Shown: positions 2,274 through 42,447, numbered from the stretch's first letter. The stretch is 48,529 nt of DNA from an uncultured Bacilli bacterium (GCA_947591495.1 CANQDG010000012.1:1-48529), one strand, 5' to 3'. Made by a program: numbers and translations. Notes: generated by a model from the letters alone, not told the origin.

Positions 2274-2274
2274 A

Positions 2275-3486: not shown

Positions 3487-3495
3487 AATTATCAC

Positions 3496-7077: not shown

Positions 7078-7093
7078 TGTATTCACCTTATTT

Positions 7094-8011: not shown

Positions 8012-8018
8012 AAATTAC

Positions 8019-9044: not shown

Positions 9045-9049
9045 TGATG

Positions 9050-18208: not shown

Positions 18209-18236
18209 AAAAAAAGCGGTTTTAGCCGCTTTTTTT
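18209..18236. terminator. Bidirectional terminator between XRE and nagB
   Basis: AGCGG pairs with CCGCT around a six-base loop, and the stem is extended by seven A and matching T on the two sides. Read in either direction it ends in a T-run. It lies between the convergent XRE gene and nagB and touches the nagB stop, closing the 24-kb operon. Confidence 0.88.
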
Positions 18237-18958: not shown

Positions 18959-18970
18959 TTTTTCCTCCAT

Positions 18971-20530
18971 TTATTTTACGCTAACAGGTAATTTACCTGT
19001 TGCTTGAATTTGACCTGTTAAATATTTTGCAAGTGCTTTAAAACTTAAAAGGCTTGCTTCATAGCTACAAACATAAGTTGGAACATCTAACACGTTAATA
19101 TCGTAAGGTGTTCTAAGTGCTATCACAATTAGTTTCGACTTGTCAATGCTGTTAATTAAATCAGCTTGAGTTGAATTAAAATTAGCATTGTAACTACAGT
19201 ATATTATTTTATCATATTGAGCTACTTTTTCTAGTAAAATAGCACTTTCTGATGCGGTTGGTGAAATAGAAATGTAATGTTTATCTACCTTAAAAGGCAT
19301 ATAATCCGCAAGAGAGCTTAAAGTGTTATCTTCATTTTCAACTAATGTTACAACTTTGATTTGTGGAAAAACAATCAAGGTTTTATCGGTTTTTTTAATT
19401 GGTAAAAGATGATTTTCATTTTTTAAAAGGGTTAAACTTTCATCAGCTATCTTTTGAGCAAAAGCCATTCGTGATGGTTCTTCTAAATCATTTTTAATTT
19501 CATCAAAACTATCAGCCATTTGACCGACTTTATAAAGGCTCTTATATTTTAATATTCTTGTAACAGCAGCGTCAATTATGTTAAGCGGTATTTTCCCCTC
19601 TTCCGCAAGTCTTAAAGCAATTTCGGCGAATTCTTTTTGCATGCTAACATTACGAGCACCACACAAAAGTAAAATATCGCAACCAGAATTAAAGCCATTA
19701 TAAACAATTTCTTCTAGACTAAAATTATCAAAAACAGCTGACATTGTAAGTGAATCAGTAACTACTAATCCTTTAAAGCCCATTTCTTCACGTAATAATC
19801 CTGTAATTATTTTTTTGGATAAAGTTGTTGGATATTTATTGTCATATTTAGTATAAAGAACATGACTAGCCATAATACCAGGTAAATCTAAATCTATTAC
19901 TTTTTGAAAAGGAACAAGTTCAATTTTATCTAATCTTTCTTTATCAAAATCTACAACTGGTAAACCAACATGTGAATCAACTGCAGTATCTCCATGACCA
20001 GGAAAATGCTTAACTGAAGTCATAAGCCCCGCATCATGATACCCTTTTACAGCTTGTTCCATATAAGAAGCAACAATGTTAGGATCTTCTGAATATGAGC
20101 GAACATTAATAACAGGGTTTTTGGGGTTATTATTAACATCTCCAACTGGAGCAAAATTAAAATTAAATCCTAAATGGCGAAGTTCAATACCCATATTTTT
20201 AGCAAGCGTATATGCATTTTCTTTATGACAAGTAGCACTAATAGCCATCGCACCAGGAGATTGAACAATACCCTCTGTTACCCGCGCAACCATTCCCCCT
20301 TCTTGATCTAAAGCAATAAAGGGCGGAATTTTAGCGTGACGATTTATTTCTTTATTTAAGTCAAAAATTTGTTTAGGTGTAATACAATTATCTTTAAAAT
20401 AGATAATTAATCCAGCCTCAATATCTTCAACTTGCATTTTTAACTCTGGACTATATTCATCACCAGAGAAGGCTAGGCCAATCATTTGGCCTACCTTTTC
20501 TTTTAAAGTCATTTTCTTTATATCTATCAT
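18971..20530 (-). CDS. nagZ: GH3 beta-N-acetylglucosaminidase NagZ-like, cytoplasmic
   Basis: A 519-residue GH3 enzyme without a signal peptide. FIALDQEGGMVARVT lies at residues 71-85. KHFPGHGDTAVDSH lies at 174-187, containing the Asp185-His187 acid/base dyad typical of NagZ. The nucleophile D259 is in LVVTDSLTMSA. A C-terminal alpha/beta domain (about 350-519) is present, as in Bacillus NagZ. It removes GlcNAc from the non-reducing ends of muropeptides or oligosaccharides. The Bacillus enzyme is exported; this one should act inside on imported fragments, alternating with NamZ. It directly abuts nagB and lies six bases after the first NAGPA gene. Confidence 0.94.
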   Translation of the reverse strand: MIDIKKMTLKEKVGQMIGLAFSGDEYSPELKMQVEDIEAGLIIYFKDNCITPKQIFDLNKEINRHAKIPPFIALDQEGGMVARVTEGIVQSPGAMAISATCHKENAYTLAKNMGIELRHLGFNFNFAPVGDVNNNPKNPVINVRSYSEDPNIVASYMEQAVKGYHDAGLMTSVKHFPGHGDTAVDSHVGLPVVDFDKERLDKIELVPFQKVIDLDLPGIMASHVLYTKYDNKYPTTLSKKIITGLLREEMGFKGLVVTDSLTMSAVFDNFSLEEIVYNGFNSGCDILLLCGARNVSMQKEFAEIALRLAEEGKIPLNIIDAAVTRILKYKSLYKVGQMADSFDEIKNDLEEPSRMAFAQKIADESLTLLKNENHLLPIKKTDKTLIVFPQIKVVTLVENEDNTLSSLADYMPFKVDKHYISISPTASESAILLEKVAQYDKIIYCSYNANFNSTQADLINSIDKSKLIVIALRTPYDINVLDVPTYVCSYEASLLSFKALAKYLTGQIQATGKLPVSVK

Positions 20531-22927: not shown

Positions 22928-22948
22928 TTTAATCTCCTTTTCTTGTAT

Positions 22949-26079: not shown

Positions 26080-27435
26080 TTATCCAACAATACCAGAACG
26101 TTCGACACCTTCAATAAATAATCTTTGAACAAATAAATATCCAATAATTAATGGTGCCATTAACATTAAGGCTGATGTATTAAGTAAAGTTTGAAGATAT
26201 AATTGGTTCTTTGAAAGATCACCAGTTTCTTTAAATAAATCAGCAAAGTTAGGGTCGGTAATTTGTAATGTAGCAAAATAGTTACCAAAATTTTGCGACA
26301 TATCAATTAGCTTTCTAGTTAACATTGGGAAGTTAACAGCTACTGTTCCATCACCATTTCTAACTATACCACTTATGCCATACATTCCCGTATAGTAAAC
26401 ATCGTTCCATTGCCATACAAAAGCAAAAAGAGCAACCGTAACAATAACACCTCGAGCATTTGGAAGCATAACACTGATAAAAGTTCTTACAACACCTGCT
26501 CCATCTATCTGAGCGGATTCTTCTAATTCAATTGGAATACCACGGAAAAATTGTCTAAACAAGAAGATAAATAAAGCCGCACGGATACCTTGACCAGTAA
26601 TTGAAGTAATATAGAAAATAATATCTTTTCCTACACCATGTAATTCAAGGGGTTTACCAAGTAAACTTTCGAAAAAGCCGGGATTATTACCAAAACTTAA
26701 AATATCAAAATTCATAAAATAAATTTTTCTAGCAAGAGCTACCGCTTGAGGCGGAACGATTAAAGTTAGCATAATTAACCAAAATAAGACATTACTACCT
26801 CTAAATTTTAATCGTGAAAAAGCATATCCTGCAAGCGATGCGGCAAACAATTGACAAATAGTTGAAATAGCCGAAACCTTAAAATTACATAATAGACCGC
26901 GCCAATAATCAAGTAAAGCCGCAGCTACCTTGAAATTAAACAAACTAAAATGTTCAGGAATCCAGTTAACAAGTTTATTGTTTAAATCAATAGGATGTCT
27001 AAAAGCAAGGGTAACTTCTTGGAAAATTGGAAAAATAATAACAAAGGCAAGGCCAATGAAAACAAAGGCTCTAACAATTGACATTATGTTATTAGCAAGT
27101 TTCCGTCTACGAACTGATCTTTTAACAGGATTTTTAAGTTCTAAAACAATTTCATCATATTTGACTTTACTTTTTTCTTTAAAGACTTGCCATTTTGATA
27201 CAGTTGGCTTTTCTTCTACATCAACTGCTTCTAAGTTTTGTTCTTCTGCTTGTTCCTCAGAAGTTGCTTCTTCTATACTATCTTCTTCAGCTGTAAGCTT
27301 TTTTACACTAGCTTCTTCTAAGTTTTGTTCTTCGATTTTTTCATTAGAAGTAGCTTCTTCTACTTTTATTTCATCCATAGGTGTTAGTTCTTCTACTTGA
27401 GGTTTTTCTTTAACTTTTTTATTTTTTGTCGTCAT
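26080..27435 (-). CDS. Carbohydrate ABC permease (MalG type) with acidic N-terminal repeat region
   Basis: A 451-residue permease. The ATG at 27435 is chosen because AAGGTGGTG stands before it; the frame is open further upstream inside the previous gene. Residues 1-90 are an acidic low-complexity region built from degenerate repeats of the type EEATSxEKxEEQNLEE. After a basic patch (VKRSVRRRKLANN) come about six membrane helices. The coupling loop ELEESAQIDGAGVV with MLP matches the EAA motif that contacts the ATPase. MalG-type permeases usually have about 280 residues, so the extension is unusual. The gene overlaps the paired permease by 17 bp. Confidence 0.9.
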   Translation of the reverse strand: MTTKNKKVKEKPQVEELTPMDEIKVEEATSNEKIEEQNLEEASVKKLTAEEDSIEEATSEEQAEEQNLEAVDVEEKPTVSKWQVFKEKSKVKYDEIVLELKNPVKRSVRRRKLANNIMSIVRAFVFIGLAFVIIFPIFQEVTLAFRHPIDLNNKLVNWIPEHFSLFNFKVAAALLDYWRGLLCNFKVSAISTICQLFAASLAGYAFSRLKFRGSNVLFWLIMLTLIVPPQAVALARKIYFMNFDILSFGNNPGFFESLLGKPLELHGVGKDIIFYITSITGQGIRAALFIFLFRQFFRGIPIELEESAQIDGAGVVRTFISVMLPNARGVIVTVALFAFVWQWNDVYYTGMYGISGIVRNGDGTVAVNFPMLTRKLIDMSQNFGNYFATLQITDPNFADLFKETGDLSKNQLYLQTLLNTSALMLMAPLIIGYLFVQRLFIEGVERSGIVG

Positions 27436-28498
27436 AATAGAACACCACCTTCGATAAAATACCAACGATGACAATCATAATTAGTGATGATGATAAAATA
27501 TAGAGCCATGACATTGCTGCATATCGACCATATTCACCACTATGTTCCATTGTATCCATAATCGAAACAATTTCCGATCTTAAGAATGAGTCAACTATTG
27601 TATATACGACAACAGTTAAAATCATTGGAGAAACCATTGGTAAAGTAATTTTCCAAAATTGTTCATATCCAGTTGCTCCTTCAATTGTAGCCGCCTCATA
27701 TAAATGTTTAGGCACAGATTGAATAGCGGTAAGGAAAATAAGAATTTGAATACCTGAATATGAAATAGTTCGATAAATTGTAGAAGTAATTCCTGCTAAG
27801 AAAGAAACCAAGGTAGCAGGAAGACCTAATCCTTGCATAAAGAGTTGCAAGTCAAATAGTTCGGTTAAGGCATTTGCCCCTGAGGCATTAAGGACCGCAT
27901 CAATACCTTCGGCGGCATTTAGTGCCTCAGTGATTGCTTCTGAGTTAAATACAACAGGTAGGAAGAAGATTGCACGAACAAAAGCTCTTCCTTTAAATTT
28001 ACCATTTAGCATTACCGCAAGCAATAAACTAAAAATCGTAATAACTGCTGTATCAATTACGGTATTAAGTGACGTATTCCACAAACTAACGGGGAAGTCC
28101 GCATTTTCTCTTAAAGCATATCGATAATTGTTAAATAAATCAATTGTTGGCGTTGCCGTATAATCATAACTATTATTAACAACTGGGAAGAATTTTGCGA
28201 AGTAAAAAGTTCCTGTTATACGAACTGAACTAAATGAATAAATCAGTGACATAACTAAAGGATATAGGAAGAATAAGCAAAATCCTAAAATGGTTGGCAA
28301 TAAAAAGAGCCATGCAATAAATAATTTTTGCTTTTCATAACGTAATTTATCATAAATGAGTTCTTTAACTAATTTTAAAGGAAAAAAGACAAAAAACCAA
28401 TTGTTTACAATAAAATTAATAACCTTTTTTATACCATGCCCTAATGAAGCAAGTTTAGGAGAACTTTTTTTATTTAATTGTAAATTGTTATTTTCCAT
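27419..28498 (-). CDS. Carbohydrate ABC permease (MalF type)
   Basis: A 359-residue permease. A basic N-terminus and first helix (WFVFFPLKL) are followed by the typical FIAWLFLLPTILGFCLFFLYP start and five more helices. The EAA loop LYEAATIEGATGYEQFWKI with TLPM is well kept. It heads the second permease pair with the MalG-type gene, which overlaps its end. No binding protein lies beside this pair. The lipoproteins at 37156-40584 or 11099-13372 may serve it. An AGGAGG site precedes the ATG. Confidence 0.93.
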   Translation of the reverse strand: MENNNLQLNKKSSPKLASLGHGIKKVINFIVNNWFFVFFPLKLVKELIYDKLRYEKQKLFIAWLFLLPTILGFCLFFLYPLVMSLIYSFSSVRITGTFYFAKFFPVVNNSYDYTATPTIDLFNNYRYALRENADFPVSLWNTSLNTVIDTAVITIFSLLLAVMLNGKFKGRAFVRAIFFLPVVFNSEAITEALNAAEGIDAVLNASGANALTELFDLQLFMQGLGLPATLVSFLAGITSTIYRTISYSGIQILIFLTAIQSVPKHLYEAATIEGATGYEQFWKITLPMVSPMILTVVVYTIVDSFLRSEIVSIMDTMEHSGEYGRYAAMSWLYILSSSLIMIVIVGILSKVVFYYDDKK

Positions 28499-28506
28499 GT
28501 TGCCTC

Positions 28507-31500
28507 CTAGATTACGGTATAAGATTTAGCAGGAACCATAATTCCTTCATTACTTACCCAATTTGTTTTTTGATAATTCAAAATAATTTCAATTTGTTTT
28601 GAACCATCTAAATTTTCATATGTTACTTTAAAGACATCGTTAGCTAATCTTTCATGGCTTACTAAATTACATGAAAAAATATCAAGTTCATTTAAAGTAT
28701 CACAAACTGTTTTAACATCTTCTAACCAACGTGTATATAAAGTATAATAATAATTATTATAATTAGTTTGTAAAAGTTCAGAAGAATCATCATATGTGAA
28801 AGTAAAGGCTGGATTTGAACCCGTTTCAATACATTTCATTAAATGTTCTTGTAAACCTTTTTCCGCATATTGATTAATTGATTCACCACTATAATCGACT
28901 AATCCATTGATTACTAATTGATAAAATGGAATCGTATAGTCTAAAATTTCATATAAAGTTGATTGATATGGTAAATCATATAAATTTGATGAATATTCAA
29001 TTGCATATGCATATGGTTTATCCAAAGCAATATTAGTAATACCTTGCGCTCTTAAATTTTCAAAAGACTTAATTTGTTCCTCAATAGCTGCTGTTTTGAA
29101 AAGAGTTGCTTTCTTTTTGTAGTTACCTGAAAGTTTAGATCCAAGTCCTGATAAAGCAAGTTTATCAATTCCTAAAGTTTTTTGATATTTTTTAGCTAGC
29201 GTTTTAGAGAAAGCATCATAATATGCTGGTGATAAAATCATTATTTCATCTAAATCTGTATTGAAAACATTAGATTGTAAATCATATGGATATTTAGAAG
29301 CTGCTAAGCCTGTTATATCACGTGCTGTATAATGTGCTTTACCAAATGATTCTTGGAAATCATTATATTCTAAGAATTCTAAATAAGGATAAATATTAAC
29401 TTTGTTATTATATTCATTGATAAGTTTTAAAAGTTTTTTCTTGCCACCTATTTCACTACTAACTTTAATATTCTTAAATGATGTATTGACAAGACCTTCT
29501 TTTCGCCATCCTTTATAATAAACATTAATACCAGAAACATCATATTGAAGTAATTCATCAAGCATTTCTTTTAATTGATCAACAGTTGTAAGACTATCTT
29601 CAGCCGTATAACCGATACCTAAGAAATTAGCTTTATATGAATAACTACCAATAACTTCTAAATCTAAAACAACTTTAGCAGTTTGATCATTTTCAGCATT
29701 TAATTTACCTTCACTTCGATCAATTAAAATATCACGATAGCATTTAGCAATACCACTATATGAAGTTTCATATTCATCACTCAAATAGTGATAATTAAAG
29801 TGATAATCATAGGTTGCGGAAACATCAGTATAAACATTTGTTTCATTACGATTAAATTGGTTAGTACCAACAACTGATACTTGGGTTTCTCTTAGAACAA
29901 TCGTATAATTGGCATAATTATAACGGTCATTTGTCTTAGGAACATCAACAAGCATTCTTACTTGTGGTTCACCTTTAGTAACTTCTGCGATCATCGCAGT
30001 GCTTTTACCTGTGGCAACATCCTTTTTAACCATACCATACATAGGTAATAAAATATCTGATGATGAAGTGGTTAGAATCGTATTGATAAAAGTTAAATCA
30101 CCTGAATAGATACGTTTTTGATATGCATCATAGCTTTTACCATTATCAAAGTTCAAAATAGCACCACTGCCATCAGGAATAACAAAATATCCTTCATTAC
30201 TAAACTCTCTTGATGATGTAAAATATGGTAAAACGTTTATTTCAGTAACTTGATAGTTATCACCATTTTCATTAGTGTTTGTTCTAATTGAATTACCAGG
30301 AACAACAACTTCTAAACCATCATCAGTTAAAGAATATTCAATAGCAAGACCTATTATTGGACCTTCAGTAGTAGGTACTGATCCATTATCAAGTAATAAA
30401 TCTTCTTCGGTATATTGACACCATTCATAGAAAAATGGATATAGCCATTTAACTACTTGACCATCAGTTTTTAGTCTAAAATATGGTGAAATATCATTTG
30501 GTTTTTCATAGAAAGAATCAAAAGCCGCATAATAGAAATCTCTTGCTGCTTGTGAAAAGTCATTCATACCTGCACCATAAGCTAAACCTTCAATTTTACG
30601 ACCTGCTGAATCGACTGGATACATTCCATCGTGTTCATAGCGATAATCATCAACGTATTGATTACAACGTTCAAACAATTCATCTACTCTTTCACGTGTT
30701 AATTGGGTAGGGAAATAACTAGCATTAAGACCTTTATTTTGCATAATATAATATATTTGAACTCTTGCTTTAGCTAAATCGCCCGATTCATCTTCAATGA
30801 CTTTTACATAATAACTAGCTCTAATACCTTCTTGTGGTGAATCATTAGAAGATTTACTAAATGTATCCCATTCATAATTTTCACGTTTAGAAATATTTTC
30901 ACTAACAAATTTTACAATCATCGCTGCTTTATGTTTATTTTGAACATCACTATCGGTTGGATTAGATTCAAAAGTATTGATAATATTACCTTCTTGATCT
31001 TTTTCATGAATTTTAAAGGTTGAATCTAATAAATTCATTTCTAAAATAAAGCGATCGTTTTCAGCTATTTTCTTACGAGAAAAATTATCATTTCTAAAGT
31101 CTTCAAAAGTATAACCAGCTAATTCTTGTTTGCGTGCTTGATATGTGCTTTCAAACAAGTCTTTATCTTCATAGTCTTGTTGATATTCGGGTAATATGAT
31201 TGTATCATTATATGCCTTTTCAAGTTCAGCATCATATCTTGCATTATTTAAGCAATCAACAAAATCCGTATAATCATCATATGGTGGTTGATATTCAGGA
31301 TTTGTTAAATCAGCTTTGATTGCCTCATCATAGATATTTTCTAAAGAAACAAAACCATTATTATTTAAACTTTCTTCATCCCAATCCCAATATTCATCAG
31401 GATATTCATTTTCAAAGTTCATTGCTTGAGCTTTATATGTATCTAAGAAGTAAACTGATAAAAAGATCACAACGAAAAGAACCACAACAACTAAAAGGAT

Positions 31501-31554
31501 TCTTTTAATATATGTAAATACTGTAACTTTTTTTCTCATACCTTTTTTCTTCAT
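28507..31554 (-). CDS. DUF5696-type membrane-anchored extracellular protein
   Basis: A 1015-residue protein with a basic N-terminus and one membrane helix (about residues 15-34), the rest predicted outside. I place it in the DUF5696 family by overall character and by position between ABC permeases and an NHL/Yip1 protein, an arrangement I know from other Bacillota. The middle (about 470-620) is beta-rich. From about 640 on, segments such as GINVYYKGWRKEG and VNIYPYLEFLEYNDF followed by NIALDKPYAYAIEYSS resemble strands of a glycosidase TIM barrel. A hydrolytic role on the transported glycan is inferred only. It is spaced eight bases from the next permease. Confidence 0.62.
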   Translation of the reverse strand: MKKKGMRKKVTVFTYIKRILLVVVVLFVVIFLSVYFLDTYKAQAMNFENEYPDEYWDWDEESLNNNGFVSLENIYDEAIKADLTNPEYQPPYDDYTDFVDCLNNARYDAELEKAYNDTIILPEYQQDYEDKDLFESTYQARKQELAGYTFEDFRNDNFSRKKIAENDRFILEMNLLDSTFKIHEKDQEGNIINTFESNPTDSDVQNKHKAAMIVKFVSENISKRENYEWDTFSKSSNDSPQEGIRASYYVKVIEDESGDLAKARVQIYYIMQNKGLNASYFPTQLTRERVDELFERCNQYVDDYRYEHDGMYPVDSAGRKIEGLAYGAGMNDFSQAARDFYYAAFDSFYEKPNDISPYFRLKTDGQVVKWLYPFFYEWCQYTEEDLLLDNGSVPTTEGPIIGLAIEYSLTDDGLEVVVPGNSIRTNTNENGDNYQVTEINVLPYFTSSREFSNEGYFVIPDGSGAILNFDNGKSYDAYQKRIYSGDLTFINTILTTSSSDILLPMYGMVKKDVATGKSTAMIAEVTKGEPQVRMLVDVPKTNDRYNYANYTIVLRETQVSVVGTNQFNRNETNVYTDVSATYDYHFNYHYLSDEYETSYSGIAKCYRDILIDRSEGKLNAENDQTAKVVLDLEVIGSYSYKANFLGIGYTAEDSLTTVDQLKEMLDELLQYDVSGINVYYKGWRKEGLVNTSFKNIKVSSEIGGKKKLLKLINEYNNKVNIYPYLEFLEYNDFQESFGKAHYTARDITGLAASKYPYDLQSNVFNTDLDEIMILSPAYYDAFSKTLAKKYQKTLGIDKLALSGLGSKLSGNYKKKATLFKTAAIEEQIKSFENLRAQGITNIALDKPYAYAIEYSSNLYDLPYQSTLYEILDYTIPFYQLVINGLVDYSGESINQYAEKGLQEHLMKCIETGSNPAFTFTYDDSSELLQTNYNNYYYTLYTRWLEDVKTVCDTLNELDIFSCNLVSHERLANDVFKVTYENLDGSKQIEIILNYQKTNWVSNEGIMVPAKSYTVI

Positions 31555-31564
31555 GTGTTACCTC

Positions 31565-34500
31565 CTAGAAGAACCTAATCGTAATTTCTTTATATAACGA
31601 ATATATAAAGCCATACATTTGTTGTGCAAGATCAAAGATTAAAAGCGCAATAAAAGCAATAATTAAAGTTGCAACAACGGTTAAAATGATTGACCAAATT
31701 GTTTTTCCCATACCATATTCATGGATAACAACAAGTCCCATAAAGGCCATATAACCGGTAAGAACCCAAGAAATAATTTTTATTAAACTTATAAATTGAG
31801 CTTCATCTTGTGTCATAACATTACTTAAAATGATATTTAAGAAACCTAAAAGTGTAACAGGTAATAAAGAGTAGCAAATCATCATAAAGATTTCTTTGAA
31901 TTTACCTTTACCATCTAATAGAGTTGTTACACTCCAGTTAGCAACTGCAAGAACAAATGGTGGTACAACGCCATATATTAAAATTTGAATACTATTGAAA
32001 TCTTTAGGATTATTAGTATTAACGATAATACCTTCAAATTGGAAAGCTAAGATTTCCATTAAAACATAGGCCAATAAAATGACGATTGAAACCCACATTT
32101 TACCTTTCTTTTCAACCTTAAAGTCGTTAAAGCCTTGAATTGGATGCGATAAGATATATAGTGGGAATCCAATTGTTTCGCTAAAGAAATGTTTAATAGC
32201 TTTGATAATTTTATTAAAGGTTATTTTCTTTTCTTTAGGTTTATCATTTGAATCATTTTCTTCATCGTTTTCTTCTTCAACTTCTGGTTTTTCTTGACGC
32301 TTTAATGCAGCAATATTACCACTTAAAATAGCTGCTTTTTCTTCATTTAAGGCTGTTGCCTTAGCAATAGCAAGATTTTTCCGTTTTAAAGATTTAGCAT
32401 AAGAGAAAGTAATTAAAGCCACAACCGCTAAGATTACGGCACACATAATCCAACTAAAGTTATTAGATAAAATAGCATCACGATATTCAGAATATGCTTT
32501 AGAATAATATGTTGCATTATGGGCTAATTTAAAATATTCCATTGCTTCTTTATATTCACCACGCATATTTAAAGCTTTACCAATACCAAGATAAGCAAGT
32601 TCATAGTTTGTATCCATTTTAATAACTTTACGCCAATAATATTCTGAACCATATGTTTCAATGATTTTTTCTCCGTTTTCATCTAAAACAAAGTTGCCTT
32701 TTTCATCTTTTAGGTATTCATCTTGAACAATACCATTTTGATATAAAGTTGTAGCAGTATTAACAGCTTCACCAAATTCAGTTGTTTCATATGAAATAAT
32801 TGATTTTGAGGTTTTATCAAGCACTAACAATACTTCTTCTTCAATTGGGTTATTATTTTCATCTACTTCACCACTATCACGATAAAAATATCTAACAGCA
32901 ACCGGTTTAACAATTGTGCTTGAGGTTGCACTGCTTGTCGTTTGACCACCTGGTTGTTCACCGGTGATATATAATAGATTACCTTCATTATCATATGTGA
33001 ATAAACGTCCCCGGTTTTCATCAACAACGGTATAATTACCATTTTTACTAACGGTAATACCTGTAAGTTGCGACATACCGGTAACAACACCTTTTTCAGT
33101 TGAACTTAAAAGATATACCGCATCACCATCTGGGGTTACATAACCATTACGTTTTAAAATATCAGTACCTGTAGTGTTAATCATTTTAACTAGATTAGCA
33201 TTGGTTGTTGCATCAGCATCAGGAACAGATGTAGCATATAAGAAACCACTTTCATCCATAGCAATATTGGTGAAAACATTTGGTAAATCAAGTTTTAATG
33301 AAGCAATTTGCGTTTCGGAGAAAATCTTAGACCAGAATTTCTTTAAAGGGTTAGCAACAACTTCATTTTTTCCTAAGAAACGATTGAATGAACCAGAAGT
33401 ATGAAATTCCATAATTCCTTCATAAATATTTTGAGCAATACAATAAAGTCGTCCGGTTTTATCTACAGCCACCTTTTGTGGTTTAAAAATTAATAAATCG
33501 TTATTTACGGCACCTTCTGCAGGTTGATAAAAGGTTGTATCATTAGGGGTTAAATAGATACCATCAACAACTTTATTAGTTAAATCGTATCTAATTATTT
33601 GGGAATTGTTGGTATCAGCAATATACATATACTTGCCAACAACAGTAATACCACTAGCTCCATTTAAACGAATTGCTGATTGAGTTGGATCTTCTGAATA
33701 AGGATAATAAGGAGCTTTACCTCTACTTTCTTCAACTGCCGTACGTAAACTAGCTTTAATTGTTCTACTAACATTTGATACTAAACTATCATCAAAAACA
33801 ATTTTATAACTATCTACCTTTTTTTCAGTTTGATTTGGTACAGGACTGCCATTTTCATCTAAAACAGGAGCATCAACTATTTCATTGACTTCCCAGTGCC
33901 AAAGTGATGAATCAATTACTTTACCAGTATCATCACTTAATTCTAAAGTTGTATCAGTATATTGATAAGTTTTGCTATCAATTGAATATGTTCCATAAAC
34001 AAATTCTTTAATAATTATTTCGTTTTCTTCAAATGGTAGTGTATAAGTATACTCAACTGGATCATTATAAGTTGTAACATAATTTTCAGAACTAACATGT
34101 TCTGGCATTATTTGATAATTTTCAAGATAGAACTTATAATAGTCTTGAAGAATCTTTTTAACTGCATCATTAATTCTAAATTCGCTCAAAGTTTCAACTT
34201 TTTCAAAGTTACTATTTAAATGATAAACAACACTAATATTTGCTTTAGTTAATTCTGGATAAGAAATACCATTATATGTTTTAGCTTCGGAAATAACCAC
34301 ACTAGCAACAGATCCGGTTGGATCGTTTGATAAAGTTGAATCTAAAATATAAATATCATTACCAGAAACGGCTAGGTCAGCTAAATTATTTGAAAAGTAA
34401 ATTTTTTCATCACCAGAACCTACAATATCTTCGTTATAATAAGTTTTGCTATAAGCAAGTCCTTCGGCAGATGGGACAATGTTTTTCCAAAAATCATAAT

Positions 34501-34600
34501 TATAACTAGCGGCTTTACTTTCAATAAATGGTAGAAATGCCACGACTGAAAGTAAAGCTATTATTAATACTCTACTTATATATTTAATTTTCTTTGCCAT
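31565..34600 (-). CDS. NHL beta-propeller, TPR and Yip1-domain membrane protein
   Basis: A 1011-residue protein with an unusual layout. A signal peptide covers about residues 1-32 (ending SKAAS). An extracellular beta-propeller with NHL-type repeats covers about 90-560 (for example GITVVGKYMYIADTNNSQII, VAVDKTGRLYCIAQ, GITVSKNGNYTVVDENRGRL). A TPR-like helix pair lies at about 655-700 (LAYLGIGKALNMRGEYKEAM). A membrane helix at about 712-731 and a charged cytoplasmic linker (EVEEENDEENDSNDKPKEKK) follow. The C-terminal Yip1-type domain has about five helices (830-1000). It lies between the first permease pair and the DUF5696 gene with ten-base gaps. A scaffold or sensor tied to the transporter is plausible; no function is established. 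Confidence 0.75.
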   Translation of the reverse strand: MAKKIKYISRVLIIALLSVVAFLPFIESKAASYNYDFWKNIVPSAEGLAYSKTYYNEDIVGSGDEKIYFSNNLADLAVSGNDIYILDSTLSNDPTGSVASVVISEAKTYNGISYPELTKANISVVYHLNSNFEKVETLSEFRINDAVKKILQDYYKFYLENYQIMPEHVSSENYVTTYNDPVEYTYTLPFEENEIIIKEFVYGTYSIDSKTYQYTDTTLELSDDTGKVIDSSLWHWEVNEIVDAPVLDENGSPVPNQTEKKVDSYKIVFDDSLVSNVSRTIKASLRTAVEESRGKAPYYPYSEDPTQSAIRLNGASGITVVGKYMYIADTNNSQIIRYDLTNKVVDGIYLTPNDTTFYQPAEGAVNNDLLIFKPQKVAVDKTGRLYCIAQNIYEGIMEFHTSGSFNRFLGKNEVVANPLKKFWSKIFSETQIASLKLDLPNVFTNIAMDESGFLYATSVPDADATTNANLVKMINTTGTDILKRNGYVTPDGDAVYLLSSTEKGVVTGMSQLTGITVSKNGNYTVVDENRGRLFTYDNEGNLLYITGEQPGGQTTSSATSSTIVKPVAVRYFYRDSGEVDENNNPIEEEVLLVLDKTSKSIISYETTEFGEAVNTATTLYQNGIVQDEYLKDEKGNFVLDENGEKIIETYGSEYYWRKVIKMDTNYELAYLGIGKALNMRGEYKEAMEYFKLAHNATYYSKAYSEYRDAILSNNFSWIMCAVILAVVALITFSYAKSLKRKNLAIAKATALNEEKAAILSGNIAALKRQEKPEVEEENDEENDSNDKPKEKKITFNKIIKAIKHFFSETIGFPLYILSHPIQGFNDFKVEKKGKMWVSIVILLAYVLMEILAFQFEGIIVNTNNPKDFNSIQILIYGVVPPFVLAVANWSVTTLLDGKGKFKEIFMMICYSLLPVTLLGFLNIILSNVMTQDEAQFISLIKIISWVLTGYMAFMGLVVIHEYGMGKTIWSIILTVVATLIIAFIALLIFDLAQQMYGFIYSLYKEITIRFF

Positions 34601-34610
34601 TTTCTACCTC

Positions 34611-35636
34611 CTATTTCATACCAGAGTGAGCCATTGTTTCGATAATCTGGCTTTGAGAAAGGATAAACACGGTAATTGGAACAATCATCATAATTAACAT
34701 TACCGCTGATGCTGTACCAGTTCTGGCAACACCACCTGCGACAATTTGATGTAAAGCATATGATAATGGTTTTAAATTTTCACTATAAATAAACGATCCA
34801 CCATCATTATTCCAAAGTTGTTGGAACAATAGAATAATTAATGTTAACCATGCTGGTTTAACTAGTGGCATAACAATTTTCCAATAGATTTGGAATTCAC
34901 TAGCACCATCAATTTTCGCTGATTCAATTAACTCTGTCGGGATATCATTCATAAATTGTTTCATTAAGTATAAACCAAGCGAATAGGCCCATGCGGGGAC
35001 AATAATTGCTAATTGGCTATCAATTAAGTGAGCCCAGCTAAAGATGATATATCTTGGGGTTGCGGTAACTTGAGCCGCAAACATAAGTGAATAAACAACC
35101 ATTGAAAAGATAACCGTTGAACCAGGGAATTTATGTTTTGCAAGTGGATATGCTGCCATTGATGCAATGATAACGTGTCCAACTGTTCCAGCAAATGTTA
35201 TCCAAATTGTATTAAAGAAATATCTTGAGAAAGGAACCCACGAATCTTCTAATAAAGCTGATAAATCTTTAAAGTTATCAAGCGTTGGATTTTGGAAGAA
35301 TAATTTAGGTGGGTAAATGAAGATTTCTGCAAGAGGTTTGAAAGCTGCACAAAATGTATATACGAGTGGGTATGCACTAAATGCGCCAAACAAACACAAA
35401 AGAATAAATAAGGAAATATCTCCTGCAACACTTCTGCTTACTCTTTTTTTCTTCTTAATTCTTCGACGTTTTTCCATTCGATAGAAGAATAGTTCCATTT
35501 TTCCCATTTTGGATTCATCTTTTAATCCATATTTTTTTAGCTTCTTTTCCTGCCTTTTTAGTCTCTTCTTTTCTTGTTTTGATAGTTCAACACCAGCTAT
35601 TTGATCGTCATCAACTAAAATTTTGTCTTCAGCCAT
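34611..35636 (-). CDS. Carbohydrate ABC permease (MalG type) with basic N-terminal extension
   Basis: A 341-residue permease. Residues 1-65 are highly charged and mostly basic (SKQEKKRLKRQEKKLKKYG, then RRRIKKKKRVS), and should lie in the cytoplasm. Six helices follow, with the EAA loop TELIESAKIDGASEFQIYWK and MPLVKPAW. The C-terminus HSGMK is typical of MalG-type permeases. It starts one base after the end of its MalF-type partner, so the two are surely made together. It should form the channel for the substrate captured by the 1142-residue lipoprotein. No ATPase gene accompanies it. Confidence 0.93.
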   Translation of the reverse strand: MAEDKILVDDDQIAGVELSKQEKKRLKRQEKKLKKYGLKDESKMGKMELFFYRMEKRRRIKKKKRVSRSVAGDISLFILLCLFGAFSAYPLVYTFCAAFKPLAEIFIYPPKLFFQNPTLDNFKDLSALLEDSWVPFSRYFFNTIWITFAGTVGHVIIASMAAYPLAKHKFPGSTVIFSMVVYSLMFAAQVTATPRYIIFSWAHLIDSQLAIIVPAWAYSLGLYLMKQFMNDIPTELIESAKIDGASEFQIYWKIVMPLVKPAWLTLIILLFQQLWNNDGGSFIYSENLKPLSYALHQIVAGGVARTGTASAVMLIMMIVPITVFILSQSQIIETMAHSGMK

Positions 35637-35637
35637 A

Positions 35638-37140
35638 TTATGAACCTACCCTTCTTAAAATTTTTCTAACTAGCAAGTTAGCAAGAATCATGATAATAAA
35701 CAAAATCGTTGCAATTGCACTAGCATAACCCATTTCCATCCTTGTATTACCATAGTCCATCAGATGGGTAATAATCGTATGTCCTGCGTATTCTACCGAT
35801 GGGAAACCGGCTATATTTATTGATACTTCCGCAATCGCTAAACTTGATGTAATTTGCATTACGGCACCAAACATAAGTTGTGATTTCATTTGAGGAAGCG
35901 TAATATACCAAAGTTCTTGCCATCTACTTCTAATACCATCAATTGCCCCAGCTTCATAGAATTCTCTATTAACGCTTTGTAAACCGGCAATAAATGACAA
36001 GAAACTAACACCAAGTGACATCCACAACTGGACAATAATTAAAATCCAAATAATATATGTTGAATTTTGTAACCACGTAACGGGTTCTTGAATAATATTT
36101 AATTCCATTAAAATCGAATTAGCATATCCATAACTATCACTACTAAAAATTAATTTCCAAACTAGATAAACGTTACCTGAAATTGATGGAGCATAGAAAA
36201 TTAAGGTCATAAAGCTTCTTAAAAGTGGCTTTAATTCATTAATTAACCAAGCAAAAACGAATGACATAATGTAACTAACAGGGCCTGTAACAACAGCTAG
36301 AATGGCTGTATTTTTTAAGGCAATCATAAATACTTTGTCATCAACAAATAAGGCACGATAGTTTTCCCAACCATTAAACTTAGGAAATTCCAAAAGGTTA
36401 AAGTATGTGAAACTTAAAGCTAAACTCATCAAAACTGGTAAAACCGTAAATATAAAGAACATAATGGTATATGGAGCAACTAAATAGTAATATTGTCGTT
36501 TAACGAAAATTTCACGACGTAATCTACTTCCTCTTTTACTCCAACGGTCAATTTTACGAATAAATGAACCACGATCTTTTTCAATACGAAGTTTTAAAAC
36601 AGCTGTTTCATATTCTTTTGATACTTCTTTATAAGCTTTTTCTTTTTCTTCAAAAGCTAATTGTTGGGCTGTTTTGTTAGCCGTTTCTTCTTTTTGTGCA
36701 GTCATTGGTAATTCAAATGATTGATTTTCTTCATCACTTGTTTCATCGTTAACTACTAAAGTTGGGTTTTCGGCCGCCCATTTTTTATATTCTGCTTGAG
36801 CAGTTAAATATTCAGCTTTAATTTGATTATATTTTTCTTTAACAACTTTTAATTCTTCTTTATAAGTTTTTATATTTTCTTTAACTTGATCGTCATATTC
36901 TTTATCTTGCTTTTTTTGTTCAGCACGTTTTTCTTTTAAAGCTTTTTTAATTTCTTCTTTTTCTTTTTTACGATCTTCTCTCGTAACAATTCCGCGATCA
37001 AGTTCTTTTTGTCTTTTTTCATGATAGCGACGCTTAAAATTTAATTTTTCTTTTTTACCACCGGTAAGAGCTAGAATAAAGAGATAAACTAGTAAAACTA
37101 CAGTGATAATCAGCATAATAACAACAGCTACTGTTTTCAT
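35638..37140 (-). CDS. Carbohydrate ABC permease (MalF type) with coiled-coil insert
   Basis: A 500-residue permease, about 200 longer than usual. A first helix (about 4-24) is followed by about 170 highly charged residues rich in Lys and Glu with heptad-like character (EKEEIKKALKEKRAEQKKQD, KAEYLTAQAEYKKWAAENP), likely a cytoplasmic coiled coil. The standard six-helix permease begins near residue 210 (YYYLVAPYTIMFFIFTVLPV). The EAA loop FYEAGAIDGIRSRWQELWYI with TLPQ is present. It lies 15 bases after the large binding protein. The coiled coil may pair with the basic extension of its MalG partner or with another cytoplasmic protein. Confidence 0.92.
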   Translation of the reverse strand: MKTVAVVIMLIITVVLLVYLFILALTGGKKEKLNFKRRYHEKRQKELDRGIVTREDRKKEKEEIKKALKEKRAEQKKQDKEYDDQVKENIKTYKEELKVVKEKYNQIKAEYLTAQAEYKKWAAENPTLVVNDETSDEENQSFELPMTAQKEETANKTAQQLAFEEKEKAYKEVSKEYETAVLKLRIEKDRGSFIRKIDRWSKRGSRLRREIFVKRQYYYLVAPYTIMFFIFTVLPVLMSLALSFTYFNLLEFPKFNGWENYRALFVDDKVFMIALKNTAILAVVTGPVSYIMSFVFAWLINELKPLLRSFMTLIFYAPSISGNVYLVWKLIFSSDSYGYANSILMELNIIQEPVTWLQNSTYIIWILIIVQLWMSLGVSFLSFIAGLQSVNREFYEAGAIDGIRSRWQELWYITLPQMKSQLMFGAVMQITSSLAIAEVSINIAGFPSVEYAGHTIITHLMDYGNTRMEMGYASAIATILFIIMILANLLVRKILRRVGS

Positions 37141-37155
37141 AATTTAACTCCTTTC

Positions 37156-40100
37156 TTACTCTTCATCGGCAGTTGGTAAATCAAATTCTTTACGTTTACG
37201 ATTTATTTCATCGTTAATATTACCACAATATTCATATAATGTTTCACGTGGATTATAGAAATTATTAATTACTTCACGATAAGCATTTTCAACTTCACGT
37301 CCAATAATATAACTACCTGCAACTTGAGGCATTTCATGGACCATACTCCATTGAGTCATTAGTTTATCGAGATCTGATTGTGGCCATGCAAGTGATTGGA
37401 AAGCTTTAACATTAGCTGTAGCATGTCTTGCTGCAGGGCCTAAGATACCTTCCATTTCACGACCAAATTGAGCTTGTGTTTCAGCGCCTGTCCACCATTT
37501 TAAGAATTCCCAAGAAGCATTATATTTAGCTTGTTTTTCTTTATCAGGAACACTTTTTGGTTGTTTCATAATAACAGCACCTGTACCACTAGCAGTTGAT
37601 GTATGGTCAATGATTTCATTTCCGTTATCATCATATCCAATAACAGTACCAGGAATTAAATGGAATGACCATTTACCTTTAAGTTCTGGTGCTGATACTG
37701 CAAGTGTATTATAAGTTTCATAATAAGCTATACCAATTGGCATTTCACCACTACGGAAACGGTTAATAAATGATGCATATTTAGGGAAAGAATATAAGGT
37801 GTAAAATTCCGTCCAATATTCGAATGAACGCATTGCTGCATCACTTGTAAGTCCTGTTTCTTTATTATCATTAGTATATAATGCACCACCATTTTGATAA
37901 AGCATTGATACATAAACAGGGTTTAATGCCATTGCACCAGCATCATTAACAGGAAGATAGAATTGTAATTGTTGAACTTGTAATTCTGAAACTAAATCGA
38001 TAACATCATCCCAAGTTTCAGGGATTAAGTCAGTCCAACCATTTTCTTCAAAGATATCATCACGCACAAACATAACCATAAAGATCTGTTTTTCAGGAAG
38101 AGCATATACACCTTTAATATATTTTTGCATTGTATCTTTATCAAATCTTGAACTATCAAATAATTCTTCACGTGTTATATTATTTTCTAAAGTAAATTCA
38201 TCAATCGCATAATAATCATTAACTTTCGCAATCGCAGCAGCATCACCATTGGCGGCAGCTTCTAAATCAGAATTAGTAATCGAATAGAATTGGAATTGTC
38301 TTAATGATGAAGCGTGATATACATTTTCTTTTGAATTATCCCAAGTCATAGTATGATCAGGCATAACATAGACTGTATCCCAGAAATCATCAAAATTAGT
38401 TAAATCATATACTGCATTACGAAGCGCATAGTTAACAGGTAAACTTGAATCAACATTCAAAGCAACATCAGGTCCTATTCCTGCCAGTGTAGCTTTTAAT
38501 AAAACATCAGCTCCGGTTAATTTTAAGTCAACTTTTATACCGGTATTTTTGGTAAAGGTCGTATCAATCAAGCTACGAACAACATTAGCTTGGTCACGTC
38601 CAAGTGTCATCCAAACTTCAATTGAATCACTAACATCACTTTCTTGTTCTTCGGTTTCACCAATTGATGAATAATCAATGAAGAATGATAGAACAAATGA
38701 ACAAATACTATTCCACATTTTTCTAAAGAAGCCTTCGTTAGCTTTTGGTAATTTAACATCACTTGTATGAACTTCAAGATAATCAATTCCAAGTGGTAAT
38801 TCACGAAGTTCAGTAAGAAGGGTTCCAAGAGAAGAAATGTTATTGGTAAATGATGATAATTTTTGAGTGATTAAACGTGGCTTTTCAATAAAATCTTCAA
38901 GTTGACGGGTCATTGTATCAAGCACACCAGTTTTATCCGATTTACCACCTGATATTTCCGCAATACTTTTAGATGCGTTAACTAAACGATCATGATATTC
39001 TCTTAAGTCATCAATAAGATTTGGAAATCTTTTAGTGATTTCATAGTCACGGTTTTTATCAGGTGATGTAGTTGTATAAGAAACAATTGTTCGGTAAGTT
39101 CTACTTAAATCATCAATTGCCGATTGAATTTCTGAAATAAGTGGAGCATAAGCACCTAAAGTAACTTCAAGGGTAAAGGTATAAGTTTTACCTTTTTCAA
39201 AATAGAATAAATAATTTTCTTTACCATTACCTAAAGTAACATTTTGCCAATCACTAGAAAAACTAAATTTAACATCGTTTAATTCTTCAAATAAAACTTC
39301 ATTTGTTGTTACATTTTTTTCAGTTACATAAGCAATTCTACTACTATACATTCCTCGAACTAAATTTTGACGAGCTCGCATTGAAATGTTATAATAGCCA
39401 CTTTCGGGAACACTAAAGTCCCAACTAATCCAATCGCCTAAAACTTTCCATTGGTTACCACCAATATAATTTTTCTTTGTAACTTTTAAACTGAATGGTT
39501 TAGTATTTGATGAAGAACGATCAGTTACTGGATATAATGTAGGAGATGATTTATATGATGCTTTTTCAGCTTGGATTGGACCAGTTGTTTGATTAACTGT
39601 TGTTGGTTCACCATATATAGCTTTTAAATTATTAAGATATTGTTCATATGTTGGAATTTCGCTAATTGAAACAATATGAATTTGATCAATGATGATTGGT
39701 TCTTTAATAGAAGAAAGGGTAATTTCTTGTGTGCCAGCTTCGAAATAAAACATATAAGGATCGGTAACATAACCCATATCATCTTTAAAATATGATCTTC
39801 TTGCTGTGAAACTTTCAATTTGTTGAGGTTTTAAATCATTGCCATTAGTATCAACTTTTAAATTTCCATTTTCATCATAAGATGAAGGAGCATCTTCATA
39901 TACTCTTGAAAAAGTGAAACTATCAGCACCTTCAAAAGGAATCTCATCATTAATAAAAAGTTTTCTTTCAATTGCGGAACTATAACCACTTACCGTATTA
40001 TAATCTAAATAAATATTATAAAAACCAGCTTTTTCAACCTCAAAAGTCCAAGTAAGACTTCCAGTACTATTATGTTTTGCGACTGATGATGTTTTGGTTT

Positions 40101-40584
40101 TTTTATTAGTTATTAAATTTTTACAATTTTTAACAATTTCATCTAATACAGCTTTACGATCGGCATTTGTAATATTAACCGAACTCGTATCATGAAAAAT
40201 CATTTCAAAAACGTAATTATATTCACTATTTGTAAAAGCATTTTCAGTTGTAAAACATTCCATTAAATCTTTTATGTGAGAAGTTCCATTTTTAGGATCT
40301 AACATATCTTCGGTTAAATAAATATCCGTAACAGTTGGATTGCTACCTACTGTTTCTGTTTGGTTTTTATCATAATTAGATCCGTCAATAGCGATATCAA
40401 CACCTTCAGGTTTAATAAGTTCTTTAGATTCAACATATGAATTATATTCATTTTTAACAATTGATAGGTTTGCTTGATCATATATTTGATATTCTTCTTT
40501 TTTACTACATGAAGTTAATGAACCAATTCCCAATACGACAATTGCCATTACCATTAAACCTAAAAATAATTTTTTGGCTCTCAT
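37156..40584 (-). CDS. Giant sugar-binding lipoprotein with carbohydrate-binding-like modules
   Basis: A 1142-residue lipoprotein. The signal ends LTSC with Cys26. Two beta-sandwich modules of CBM35/CBM6 type are suggested at about 165-300 (LTWTFEVEKAGFYNIYLDYN) and 340-480 (WISWDFSVPESGYYNISMRA). A helical spacer covers about 490-640. The family-1 solute-binding domain covers about 650-1142 (IEVWMTLGRDQANVVRSLID, then MFVRDDIFEENGWTDLIPET, GAVIMKQP and WEFLKWWTGAETQAQFGREM). Ordinary sugar-binding proteins have about 430 residues. It overlaps the GH20 stop in an ATGA junction and leads straight into its permease pair. It may hold long glycans through the modules while the binding domain captures ends or released oligosaccharides. 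Confidence 0.87.
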   Translation of the reverse strand: MRAKKLFLGLMVMAIVVLGIGSLTSCSKKEEYQIYDQANLSIVKNEYNSYVESKELIKPEGVDIAIDGSNYDKNQTETVGSNPTVTDIYLTEDMLDPKNGTSHIKDLMECFTTENAFTNSEYNYVFEMIFHDTSSVNITNADRKAVLDEIVKNCKNLITNKKTKTSSVAKHNSTGSLTWTFEVEKAGFYNIYLDYNTVSGYSSAIERKLFINDEIPFEGADSFTFSRVYEDAPSSYDENGNLKVDTNGNDLKPQQIESFTARRSYFKDDMGYVTDPYMFYFEAGTQEITLSSIKEPIIIDQIHIVSISEIPTYEQYLNNLKAIYGEPTTVNQTTGPIQAEKASYKSSPTLYPVTDRSSSNTKPFSLKVTKKNYIGGNQWKVLGDWISWDFSVPESGYYNISMRARQNLVRGMYSSRIAYVTEKNVTTNEVLFEELNDVKFSFSSDWQNVTLGNGKENYLFYFEKGKTYTFTLEVTLGAYAPLISEIQSAIDDLSRTYRTIVSYTTTSPDKNRDYEITKRFPNLIDDLREYHDRLVNASKSIAEISGGKSDKTGVLDTMTRQLEDFIEKPRLITQKLSSFTNNISSLGTLLTELRELPLGIDYLEVHTSDVKLPKANEGFFRKMWNSICSFVLSFFIDYSSIGETEEQESDVSDSIEVWMTLGRDQANVVRSLIDTTFTKNTGIKVDLKLTGADVLLKATLAGIGPDVALNVDSSLPVNYALRNAVYDLTNFDDFWDTVYVMPDHTMTWDNSKENVYHASSLRQFQFYSITNSDLEAAANGDAAAIAKVNDYYAIDEFTLENNITREELFDSSRFDKDTMQKYIKGVYALPEKQIFMVMFVRDDIFEENGWTDLIPETWDDVIDLVSELQVQQLQFYLPVNDAGAMALNPVYVSMLYQNGGALYTNDNKETGLTSDAAMRSFEYWTEFYTLYSFPKYASFINRFRSGEMPIGIAYYETYNTLAVSAPELKGKWSFHLIPGTVIGYDDNGNEIIDHTSTASGTGAVIMKQPKSVPDKEKQAKYNASWEFLKWWTGAETQAQFGREMEGILGPAARHATANVKAFQSLAWPQSDLDKLMTQWSMVHEMPQVAGSYIIGREVENAYREVINNFYNPRETLYEYCGNINDEINRKRKEFDLPTADEE

Positions 40585-42389
40585 TGTAAGTTCTCCTTTC
40601 CCATTAGTTGTTCTAGAATTTCAATTAGCCAGATAATTCTATTCACACTTTGTGCATAACCATGAGGGTTATTTCTTGCATTCCATAATTTTTTATGCAT
40701 TTTAGCATATTTTTTTAACTTAATTATTTCATTCTTAAAATCTATTCTTTTCTTTTCTCTAATTAAACTAAATTTTTGATTAAGACTTTCTAAAGTCTTT
40801 AATAAAAGTAAACTATTTTTCAATTCACGTGTTTCAAGTGAATCGTTAGCTATTTTTAATAACGCTTCGGCTTTAGCAAATGATATTTGTAATAATTGAT
40901 GATGTTTTTCATCAATTAAATTATCACATACTTTTTCTTGATAATAAGCTAATTTATTTTGTTGCCTTCTTGCATGTTCGGCATAAGTAATCGCGCTAAA
41001 TAATCTACTACCATAGCCACGATATGGTCCTTCTAAAAGGTGATATTTACCAAGTTCAAGAATAGCCTCGCATAAAGCATCATCATTTAGTATTTTTTTA
41101 AGATATGTTATTGCATCATTAAAGGTTGCTTTAGACCAACTCAAAAGACCGCCATAAATAAATCCTAAATAACTAATTGGTAAATATTGTAAATGACCAA
41201 CATCGCCCCAATCGGTAACCAAAACACCTAAAGCTTGATATTGTTTAGCAGCTTGAGTGCTATTTTCAATGGTTGTTTGCATATCTAAGATTCTACCCGT
41301 AATAGTTGCCCAACTAGAAGTTCCTGGAGCAAGCATATACTTGACTTTTTTAGATGCTAACATTTTAGCATGTTCAAAAAATGGATATTCTTTATCATAA
41401 CCCCAATCAATGAAAATAACATCACTTGGAAGTTTATCAATTTTTTCCGGATGTTTAACTAAAACATCACCCCAAAGCATTGGGATTTTATTATAGCTTT
41501 TGACATCTTCATATAATTTGTTAAAGTAATCAATATAGACATCTTCCACTGAACTTTGTAAAGTAGCTTCTTGGCTTTTGCCACTTCCAAGTTCATATGG
41601 TTCATCAAAATTCATATTAAAATATTTTGATGAAGTATGTGGTATCATATCACGATACATTTTTTTAACAAGCATAGTTGATCTTTCATCTAATGGATTA
41701 AGGGTGGATGGCATCCGGTGAGCTCCCCAGATAGTAAATCCATCAGGGCATTCCGCAAGCATTTGATATTCATCTAATGCAAGCCAATCACTCATATGAC
41801 CAAAACCATTTTGATTAGGTACAAAATCTATATAATATTCTTTAGCATATTTTTCCAAAGCTAAATAATCTTTTAGACTAATATAATTTTTTGCTTTTAA
41901 TAATGGTTTAAAATGTTGATATTCAAAAGCAAAACCTTCAATGTATAATTCTAGGTGGTTATAGCGTAATTTAGCAAACATTCTAACTAACTGTTTTAAG
42001 GTTTCTAAAGTTGGCACTTTACTTCTACTAATATCAAGCATAACACCTCTGATTTCTAAAAGGGGATAATCTTCAATTATTAGCGTCTTTTCATTAGAAC
42101 TTTCTAAAATATCACAAAGGGTATTTAAAGCATAAAAAGCACCTACTGCTTTTTGGGCTTTAATTAAAACTTGTGTTTTATTTAAAGTCAAAGAATATCC
42201 TTCGCTATGAGCAATATTATGATCTTCTTCAATGATAAGGGTTAAACCATCTTCATCAAAGTGTTTAGCAAGTATAACTAAGGCTTTTTCTTTTAAAGCA
42301 TCATCAAAACATGTGATACTTTTAATTTTATGAGAAATTATTTTTTCATCTAGATATGTTATTTTTTGGGGCTGTGGAAATAATTGCAA
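40581..42389 (-). CDS. GH20 beta-N-acetylhexosaminidase, cytoplasmic
   Basis: A 602-residue GH20 enzyme. The TTG at 42389 is taken as start because AAAGAGGTGG stands five bases before it. The GTG at 42398 is part of that ribosome site and so is unlikely. The N-terminal GH20b-like domain runs to about 115 (GYSLTLNKTQVLIKAQ, FYALNTLCDIL). The barrel follows, with RGVMLDISRSKVP, QNGFGHMSDW and the catalytic Asp262-Glu263 pair in NFDEPYELG, then MLWGDVL and SSWATITGR. A helical C-terminal domain follows. There is no signal peptide, so it should cut imported beta-linked GlcNAc or GalNAc oligosaccharides. It is the first gene of the 24-kb operon. Confidence 0.9.
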   Translation of the reverse strand: MQLFPQPQKITYLDEKIISHKIKSITCFDDALKEKALVILAKHFDEDGLTLIIEEDHNIAHSEGYSLTLNKTQVLIKAQKAVGAFYALNTLCDILESSNEKTLIIEDYPLLEIRGVMLDISRSKVPTLETLKQLVRMFAKLRYNHLELYIEGFAFEYQHFKPLLKAKNYISLKDYLALEKYAKEYYIDFVPNQNGFGHMSDWLALDEYQMLAECPDGFTIWGAHRMPSTLNPLDERSTMLVKKMYRDMIPHTSSKYFNMNFDEPYELGSGKSQEATLQSSVEDVYIDYFNKLYEDVKSYNKIPMLWGDVLVKHPEKIDKLPSDVIFIDWGYDKEYPFFEHAKMLASKKVKYMLAPGTSSWATITGRILDMQTTIENSTQAAKQYQALGVLVTDWGDVGHLQYLPISYLGFIYGGLLSWSKATFNDAITYLKKILNDDALCEAILELGKYHLLEGPYRGYGSRLFSAITYAEHARRQQNKLAYYQEKVCDNLIDEKHHQLLQISFAKAEALLKIANDSLETRELKNSLLLLKTLESLNQKFSLIREKKRIDFKNEIIKLKKYAKMHKKLWNARNNPHGYAQSVNRIIWLIEILEQLMGKENLQ

Positions 42390-42447
42390 AAAGACCACCT
42401 CTTTACCTTTTTTCGAATAAATCGCACTATGCCATAATACTTATCTT

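Follow-up and report, generated by a model that had tools for sequence, protein, structure and literature searches.

Importers of the CUT1 type (maltose/UgpAE type) combine a binding lipoprotein with BPD_transp_1 permeases that carry EAA loops. In animals, the SLC3 ancillary subunits of amino-acid transporters (rBAT and 4F2hc) have a single-pass anchor and a glycosidase-like ectodomain without catalytic residues, which stands outside the cell and serves the transporter; they are joined to a light chain by a disulfide. Glycoside hydrolase family 129 (GH129) includes the alpha-N-acetylgalactosaminidase NagBb and the 3,6-anhydro-D-galactosidase DagB, which have a three-domain architecture (PMC5698469), and gene clusters for beta-1,2-glucan utilisation contain GH144, GH35 and SOGP (PMC8861115). 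This study focused on a stretch of 48,529 nucleotides from an uncultured Bacilli bacterium (GCA_947591495.1 CANQDG010000012.1:1-48529; the whole stretch is called the window below), in which genes for a DUF5696 protein and an NHL-TPR-Yip1 protein, each of about 1000 residues, are sandwiched by two pairs of permease genes. These proteins are very likely dedicated subunits of an importer. The explanation favoured here, with somewhat more confidence than doubt, is that both are constant accessory subunits of a CUT1-type glycan importer, with DUF5696 as a non-catalytic holder, NHL-TPR-Yip1 as a scaffold and, in this organism, peptidoglycan as the cargo.

The layout of the locus agreed with the initial annotation, which had placed the two large genes between the permease pairs (34611-37140 upstream in transcription and 26080-28498 downstream) with gaps of 8-10 base pairs (bp); all are on the minus strand, and the gaps around the two genes are 8, 10 and 10 bp. 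The five-gene block it had proposed is indeed conserved, but comprises seven genes, in the near-invariant order of large binding protein, permease A, permease B, NHL-TPR-Yip1, DUF5696, permease C and permease D. Of 117 DUF5696 loci, 38 came from relatives and 79 from named genomes. An NHL or Yip1 gene lay directly upstream of DUF5696 in 113 and a C/D permease gene directly downstream in 111, which is far above chance; as a few contigs occur both among the named loci and among those of the relatives, slightly fewer than 117 are independent. Several of the exceptions seem to be explained by contig edges and frameshifted assemblies. This conserved order bears out the earlier view of the two proteins as partners of the transporter.

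The cassette is also widespread. Among 60 relatives, DUF5696 was encoded by 43 and the NHL-Yip1 protein by 41. The carriers, which include Acholeplasmatales, are represented among named genomes by, among others, Paenibacillus, Bacillus, Fictibacillus, Lederbergia, Thermoanaerobacter, Fervidobacterium, Thermosipho, Enterococcus, Acholeplasma equifetale and two Chloroflexi assemblies. A search with the DUF5696 protein of the window alone gave no matches and a 19-member alignment was too diverse; a 7-member alignment recovered 383 relatives. The literature search found no paper describing the cassette, and no mention of the DUF5696 family was found in the open-access literature searched.

Of the features of a CUT1 importer, a binding protein and two permeases with an EAA loop were recovered, each of the four permease kinds showing EAA loops in the majority of its members. 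The cassette differs from described CUT1 systems in its two permease pairs, its binding protein of about 1000 residues with extra domains, and its two constant accessory proteins. Permeases C and D are fused into proteins of 617-638 residues in four loci (L066, L063, L070 and L148, of which L070 and L148 are apparently one contig), which suggests that these two form a pair; in the window, the true start of permease D is probably downstream of the listed TTG. There was no ATPase gene within the locus, as in many Bacillota importers that share one ATPase, and two OB_MalK ATPases, candidate partners of the importer, are encoded elsewhere in the window genome.

Two variants of the cassette were observed. 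The window genome carries a second, divergent copy (L044, G000:C9:35000-54999), with a DUF5696 protein of 884 residues and separate NHL and Yip1 genes, which falls outside the peptidoglycan-linked clade described below. Many Bacillales cassettes (L078-L106) have an extra, ordinary binding protein of about 460 residues encoded just upstream of the 1000-residue one, and this is lacking in the window.

The DUF5696 protein matched PF18952 across residues 398-1012 (E 7.2e-130; 434.8 bits against a cut-off of 25.6). Using its AlphaFold (AF2) model (predicted local distance difference test, pLDDT, 86.7), GH129 enzymes ranked at the top in both Foldseek and VIA-align, with Z 27.1 over 584 residues for DagB (5opq; root-mean-square deviation 4.4) and Z 26.4 for NagBb (5wzp), 565-584 residues being aligned across the two enzymes. 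The next structural group, GH36-/GH13-type barrels and related galactosaminidases, followed at Z ~18 and below. The sequence profile alone recovered DagB at E 2.5e-9, and together with the fold match this makes homology to GH129 glycosidases over the whole three-domain architecture well supported. The suspicion of a glycosidase-type barrel in a membrane-anchored, outside protein was thereby strengthened, although the Pfam family for GH129 itself, PF11308, had 0 matches in the window genome, in 149 phylum genomes or in controls, and was not among the 25 of 29 families listed for the 38 DUF5696 members. Unlike the GH129 enzymes, DUF5696 is membrane-anchored and always within a transporter cassette. 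This arrangement may be compared with the SLC3 subunits as a functional analogy; those are eukaryotic and GH13-like whereas DUF5696 is GH129-like, and homology is not claimed.

The NHL-TPR-Yip1 protein had been read as an outside beta-propeller, a TPR, a membrane helix, an acidic linker and a Yip1 domain, and every part was recovered by Pfam, the structural model (pLDDT 84.9) and hydropathy. The propeller gave Z 27 to the NHL domain of TRIM2 (VIA, residues 48-608) and 28.7 bits to PF01436, against a cut-off of 20. The topology predicted from hydropathy comprises a signal peptide, the propeller and TPR outside, one helix, a cytosolic coiled/acidic linker (the acidic part at residues 773-786) and a multi-spanning Yip1 domain. 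In most loci the NHL-TPR and Yip1 parts are fused, and in others they are two separate proteins. A role as scaffold can be inferred from the domain types.

The catalytic residues of NagBb, Asp435 and Glu478 (the latter its acid/base), were placed on GH129 proteins of Paenibacillus, taken because PF11308 matched nowhere in the phylum genomes or controls, and then on DUF5696 by profile-profile alignment. No GH129 match came from a profile restricted to the C-terminal barrel half, so the mapping relies on hhalign (E 2.8e-4, probability 41%) and could be off by one or two residues. Asp435 fell on Ser802 of the window protein and Glu478 on Asp845, with a gap of two residues in the alignment at the nucleophile position, where residue 803 is Gly. 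Neither position is conserved: Asp or Glu occurs at 802 in 52% of the 117 members (in 78 if either 802 or 803 is counted) and at 845 in 16%, where 53% have Tyr, and both positions are acidic in only three members, or four if 803 is allowed. The nearest relatives of the window protein have Ser or Thr at the nucleophile position, followed by Gly. This loss of the GH129 pair makes it doubtful that DUF5696 cuts glycans before import, as had been proposed, and the peptidoglycan enzymes of the locus have no signal peptides.

A pseudo-enzyme that serves as a glycan-holding, non-catalytic subunit is therefore the role favoured for DUF5696, short of proof, and several points weigh against it. Asp is kept at the nucleophile position in many Bacillales members, and other acids are strongly conserved (Asp461 in 113/117, Glu/Asp910 in 116/117, and Asp887 in 19/19 peptidoglycan-linked members), so that a different catalytic apparatus using these residues is possible. 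There is also a precedent in DagB, in which Asp486 corresponds to Asp435 of NagBb and the other catalytic residue of NagBb is not retained, the acid/base having shifted within the fold with activity kept (PMC5698469). With the GH129 architecture complete, DUF5696 could then be an active surface glycosidase that trims glycans at the transporter by means of non-GH129 catalytic residues. This was considered unlikely, given the Ser/Thr nucleophile position of the window and its nearest relatives, the rarity of members acidic at both GH129 positions, and the constant association of DUF5696 with the transporter while the flanking hydrolases vary. Somewhat more improbable is that the two proteins form an assembly or sensing device, such as a load sensor, a signalling partner or a permease-assembly factor, and do not handle glycans. 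The propeller, TPR and Yip1 domains are indeed interaction and membrane-organisation modules, the barrel shows no catalytic conservation and Yip1 frequently has a gene of its own in relatives, but no signalling domain was seen, and the glycosidase-type architecture of DUF5696 has been fully retained. A glycan holder working with a scaffold is the preferred description.

The surroundings of the cassette in the window, unmentioned in the initial annotation, are a peptidoglycan-catabolic locus. NamZ, MupG, MurQ and AnmK occur together (NamZ and MupG also in relatives), and the window also carries two NAGPA phosphodiester glycosidases, a DUF624/MusI-like protein, GHL10, an M19 dipeptidase and a beta-lactamase-fold protein. 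Signal peptides are present in the binding protein, NHL-Yip1, NAGPA and a 1041-residue protein, DUF5696 having a membrane anchor instead, and none was visible at the starts of NamZ, MupG, GH3, GH20, GHL10, the M19 dipeptidase, the beta-lactamase-fold protein, MurQ and AnmK. Breakdown therefore probably follows import, with peptidoglycan fragments probably entering whole and being dismantled inside. The element of cutting before import in the earlier suggestion was not supported.

Peptidoglycan genes lie close to 18 of the loci, and in a 117-sequence tree every one of these fell within one clade of 19 tips (support 0.991); the contig of the 19th tip (L071, from genome G018) also carries NamZ and MupG, some 33-36 kb away. 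Recruitment of the cassette to peptidoglycan seems to have happened a single time in this bacterial order. Against a peptidoglycan role stand the cassettes of other taxa, which are followed by PF10091 (GH144-type) and GH35 in many Bacillales, or by GH43, GH31, GH30, GH123, GH16 or, at one locus, SOGP; what is carried is not set by the cassette but suggested by its neighbours. Many Bacillales cassettes share PF10091 and GH35, and one locus SOGP, with the beta-1,2-glucan clusters (PMC8861115), whereas that of the window sits by peptidoglycan enzymes instead. Specificity of the cassette for one glycan was rejected in view of these widely differing neighbours, and it is a general glycan import unit, the likely cargo of which in the window genome is peptidoglycan fragments.

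Whether such fragments come from the organism's own wall or from others was considered separately. AnmK and MurQ are classical recycling enzymes, and the window genome encodes one FtsW/RodA and two penicillin-binding protein (PBP) transpeptidases, so that this organism probably has a wall; the idea of a wall-less state was rejected for it on these grounds. Both facts would suit a locus that mainly recycles its own peptidoglycan, a rival that concerns only the source of the cargo. However, in several relatives (for example G016, G017, G021, G022 and G026; 93-98% complete) no FtsW/RodA or PBP transpeptidase was detected, an absence that is weaker in a metagenome assembly than in a closed genome, yet they keep the peptidoglycan-linked cassette, NamZ and MupG. 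Recycling of their own wall is not a sufficient reason for them to do so, and the simpler reading is that these wall-less-looking relatives feed on the walls of other bacteria. Own recycling as the main purpose of the locus was judged rather unlikely, and for the organism of the window the bacterial wall fragments brought in by the system are probably food.

Other observations on the locus concern the enzymes around the cassette. The two secreted NAGPA phosphodiester glycosidases (20537-25342) adjoin the MupG locus, and NAGPA-type cleavage of a GlcNAc-1-P-6-MurNAc link, such as occurs in the linkage unit of wall teichoic acid, would yield MurNAc-6-phosphate, a MupG-type substrate. An FAD-linked oxidase with EtfA and EtfB (867-4284), resembling an electron-bifurcating lactate dehydrogenase, lies near MurQ, the reaction of which releases D-lactate. 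In many genomes of family f2, MupG lies in frames of about 850-895 residues (e.g. G021:C23:4968-5633 and G026:C77:11146-11799), which suggests an enzyme fusion. The secreted 1041-residue protein (14408-17533) has no clear Pfam match, and partial relatives of it occur near the peptidoglycan-linked loci L047 and L069. Coordinates of the main features are collected in Table 1.

Table 1. Features of the transporter cassette and neighbouring peptidoglycan genes in the window.
Feature	Position	Strand	Basis
MurQ, AnmK, BadF/ROK kinase, MupG, NamZ: muramic acid catabolism	5025..10210	-	Pfam
NagB-like deaminase and GH3 (NagZ-like), GH3 without signal peptide	18236..20530	-	Pfam; hydropathy
Permease D (BPD_transp_1)	26080..27474	-	Pfam; listed TTG start overlaps permease C by 56 bp
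Permease C (BPD_transp_1) with EAA loop	27419..28498	-	Pfam; EAA loop
DUF5696 protein, 1015 residues, N-terminal membrane anchor and outside GH129-like three-domain ectodomain	28507..31554	-	Pfam PF18952, AF2 model, DagB/NagBb matches
GH129-like core, residues 160-1015: beta-sandwich, TIM barrel, C-terminal beta domain	28510..31077	-	VIA-align range; DagB/NagBb profile match
Ser802, equivalent of the GH129 nucleophile (NagBb Asp435)	29149..29151	-	GH129 mapping via Paenibacillus proteins; conservation
Single N-terminal membrane helix of DUF5696, residues 19-37, without lipobox	31444..31500	-	Hydropathy; helix 12-39 in model
NHL-TPR-Yip1 protein, 1011 residues, signal peptide	31565..34600	-	Pfam, model, profile and fold matches
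Yip1 domain, residues 815-985, multi-spanning	31646..32158	-	PF04893 E 1.3e-14, 54.9 bits against cut-off 28.6
Membrane helix, residues ~715-733, separating outside part from cytosolic linker	32402..32458	-	Hydropathy
TPR, residues ~650-695	32516..32653	-	Pfam TPR_1 E 0.014; designed TPRs profile E 1e-36; helices 652-693
NHL beta-propeller with insertions, residues ~45-612, extracytoplasmic	32765..34468	-	VIA Z 27.0, 267 residues aligned
Permease B	34611..35636	-	Pfam; EAA-loop check
Permease A with N-terminal extension	35638..37140	-	Profile match; EAA-loop check
Binding lipoprotein, 1142 residues: N-terminal extra domains and substrate-binding protein (SBP) domain	37156..40584	-	SBP_bac_8 E 1e-13; PDB sugar SBPs E 1.7e-4
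GH20-type hexosaminidase without signal peptide	40581..42398	-	Pfam; hydropathy

The gene block, the folds, the loss of the GH129 residues, the peptidoglycan locus and the single clade are observations, from which a scheme for binding, complex formation, direction of transport and cargo can be inferred as follows. The anchored, outside-facing DUF5696 would hold the glycan, or orient it, where it enters the transporter, while NHL-TPR-Yip1 would dock the binding protein and DUF5696 onto the permease pairs A-B and C-D, its propeller and TPR serving as the outside parts of the scaffold and Yip1 as the part in the membrane. An ATPase encoded elsewhere would energise both heterodimeric permease pairs, and the imported disaccharide or oligosaccharide chains of peptidoglycan, partly with peptides, would be dismantled inside by NamZ, GH20, GH3, MupG, AnmK and MurQ. 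In a bolder form, which is put forward only tentatively and with more doubt than confidence, the cassette would represent an undescribed, widespread type of importer, with one large binding protein, two permease pairs joined by NHL-TPR-Yip1 and a degenerate GH129 barrel that feeds in long glycans; evolution would have turned it to many different glycans and, on one occasion, to peptidoglycan fragments taken up whole, also in relatives that apparently lack walls.

DUF5696, a Pfam family of unknown function, gains from these results a GH129-like fold, constant partners and a testable role. If the proposed role is true, the cassette would give bacteria their own example of transporters with subunits that resemble enzymes but do not catalyse, and it points to a route by which possibly wall-less bacteria of the gut and rumen may eat the walls of other bacteria.

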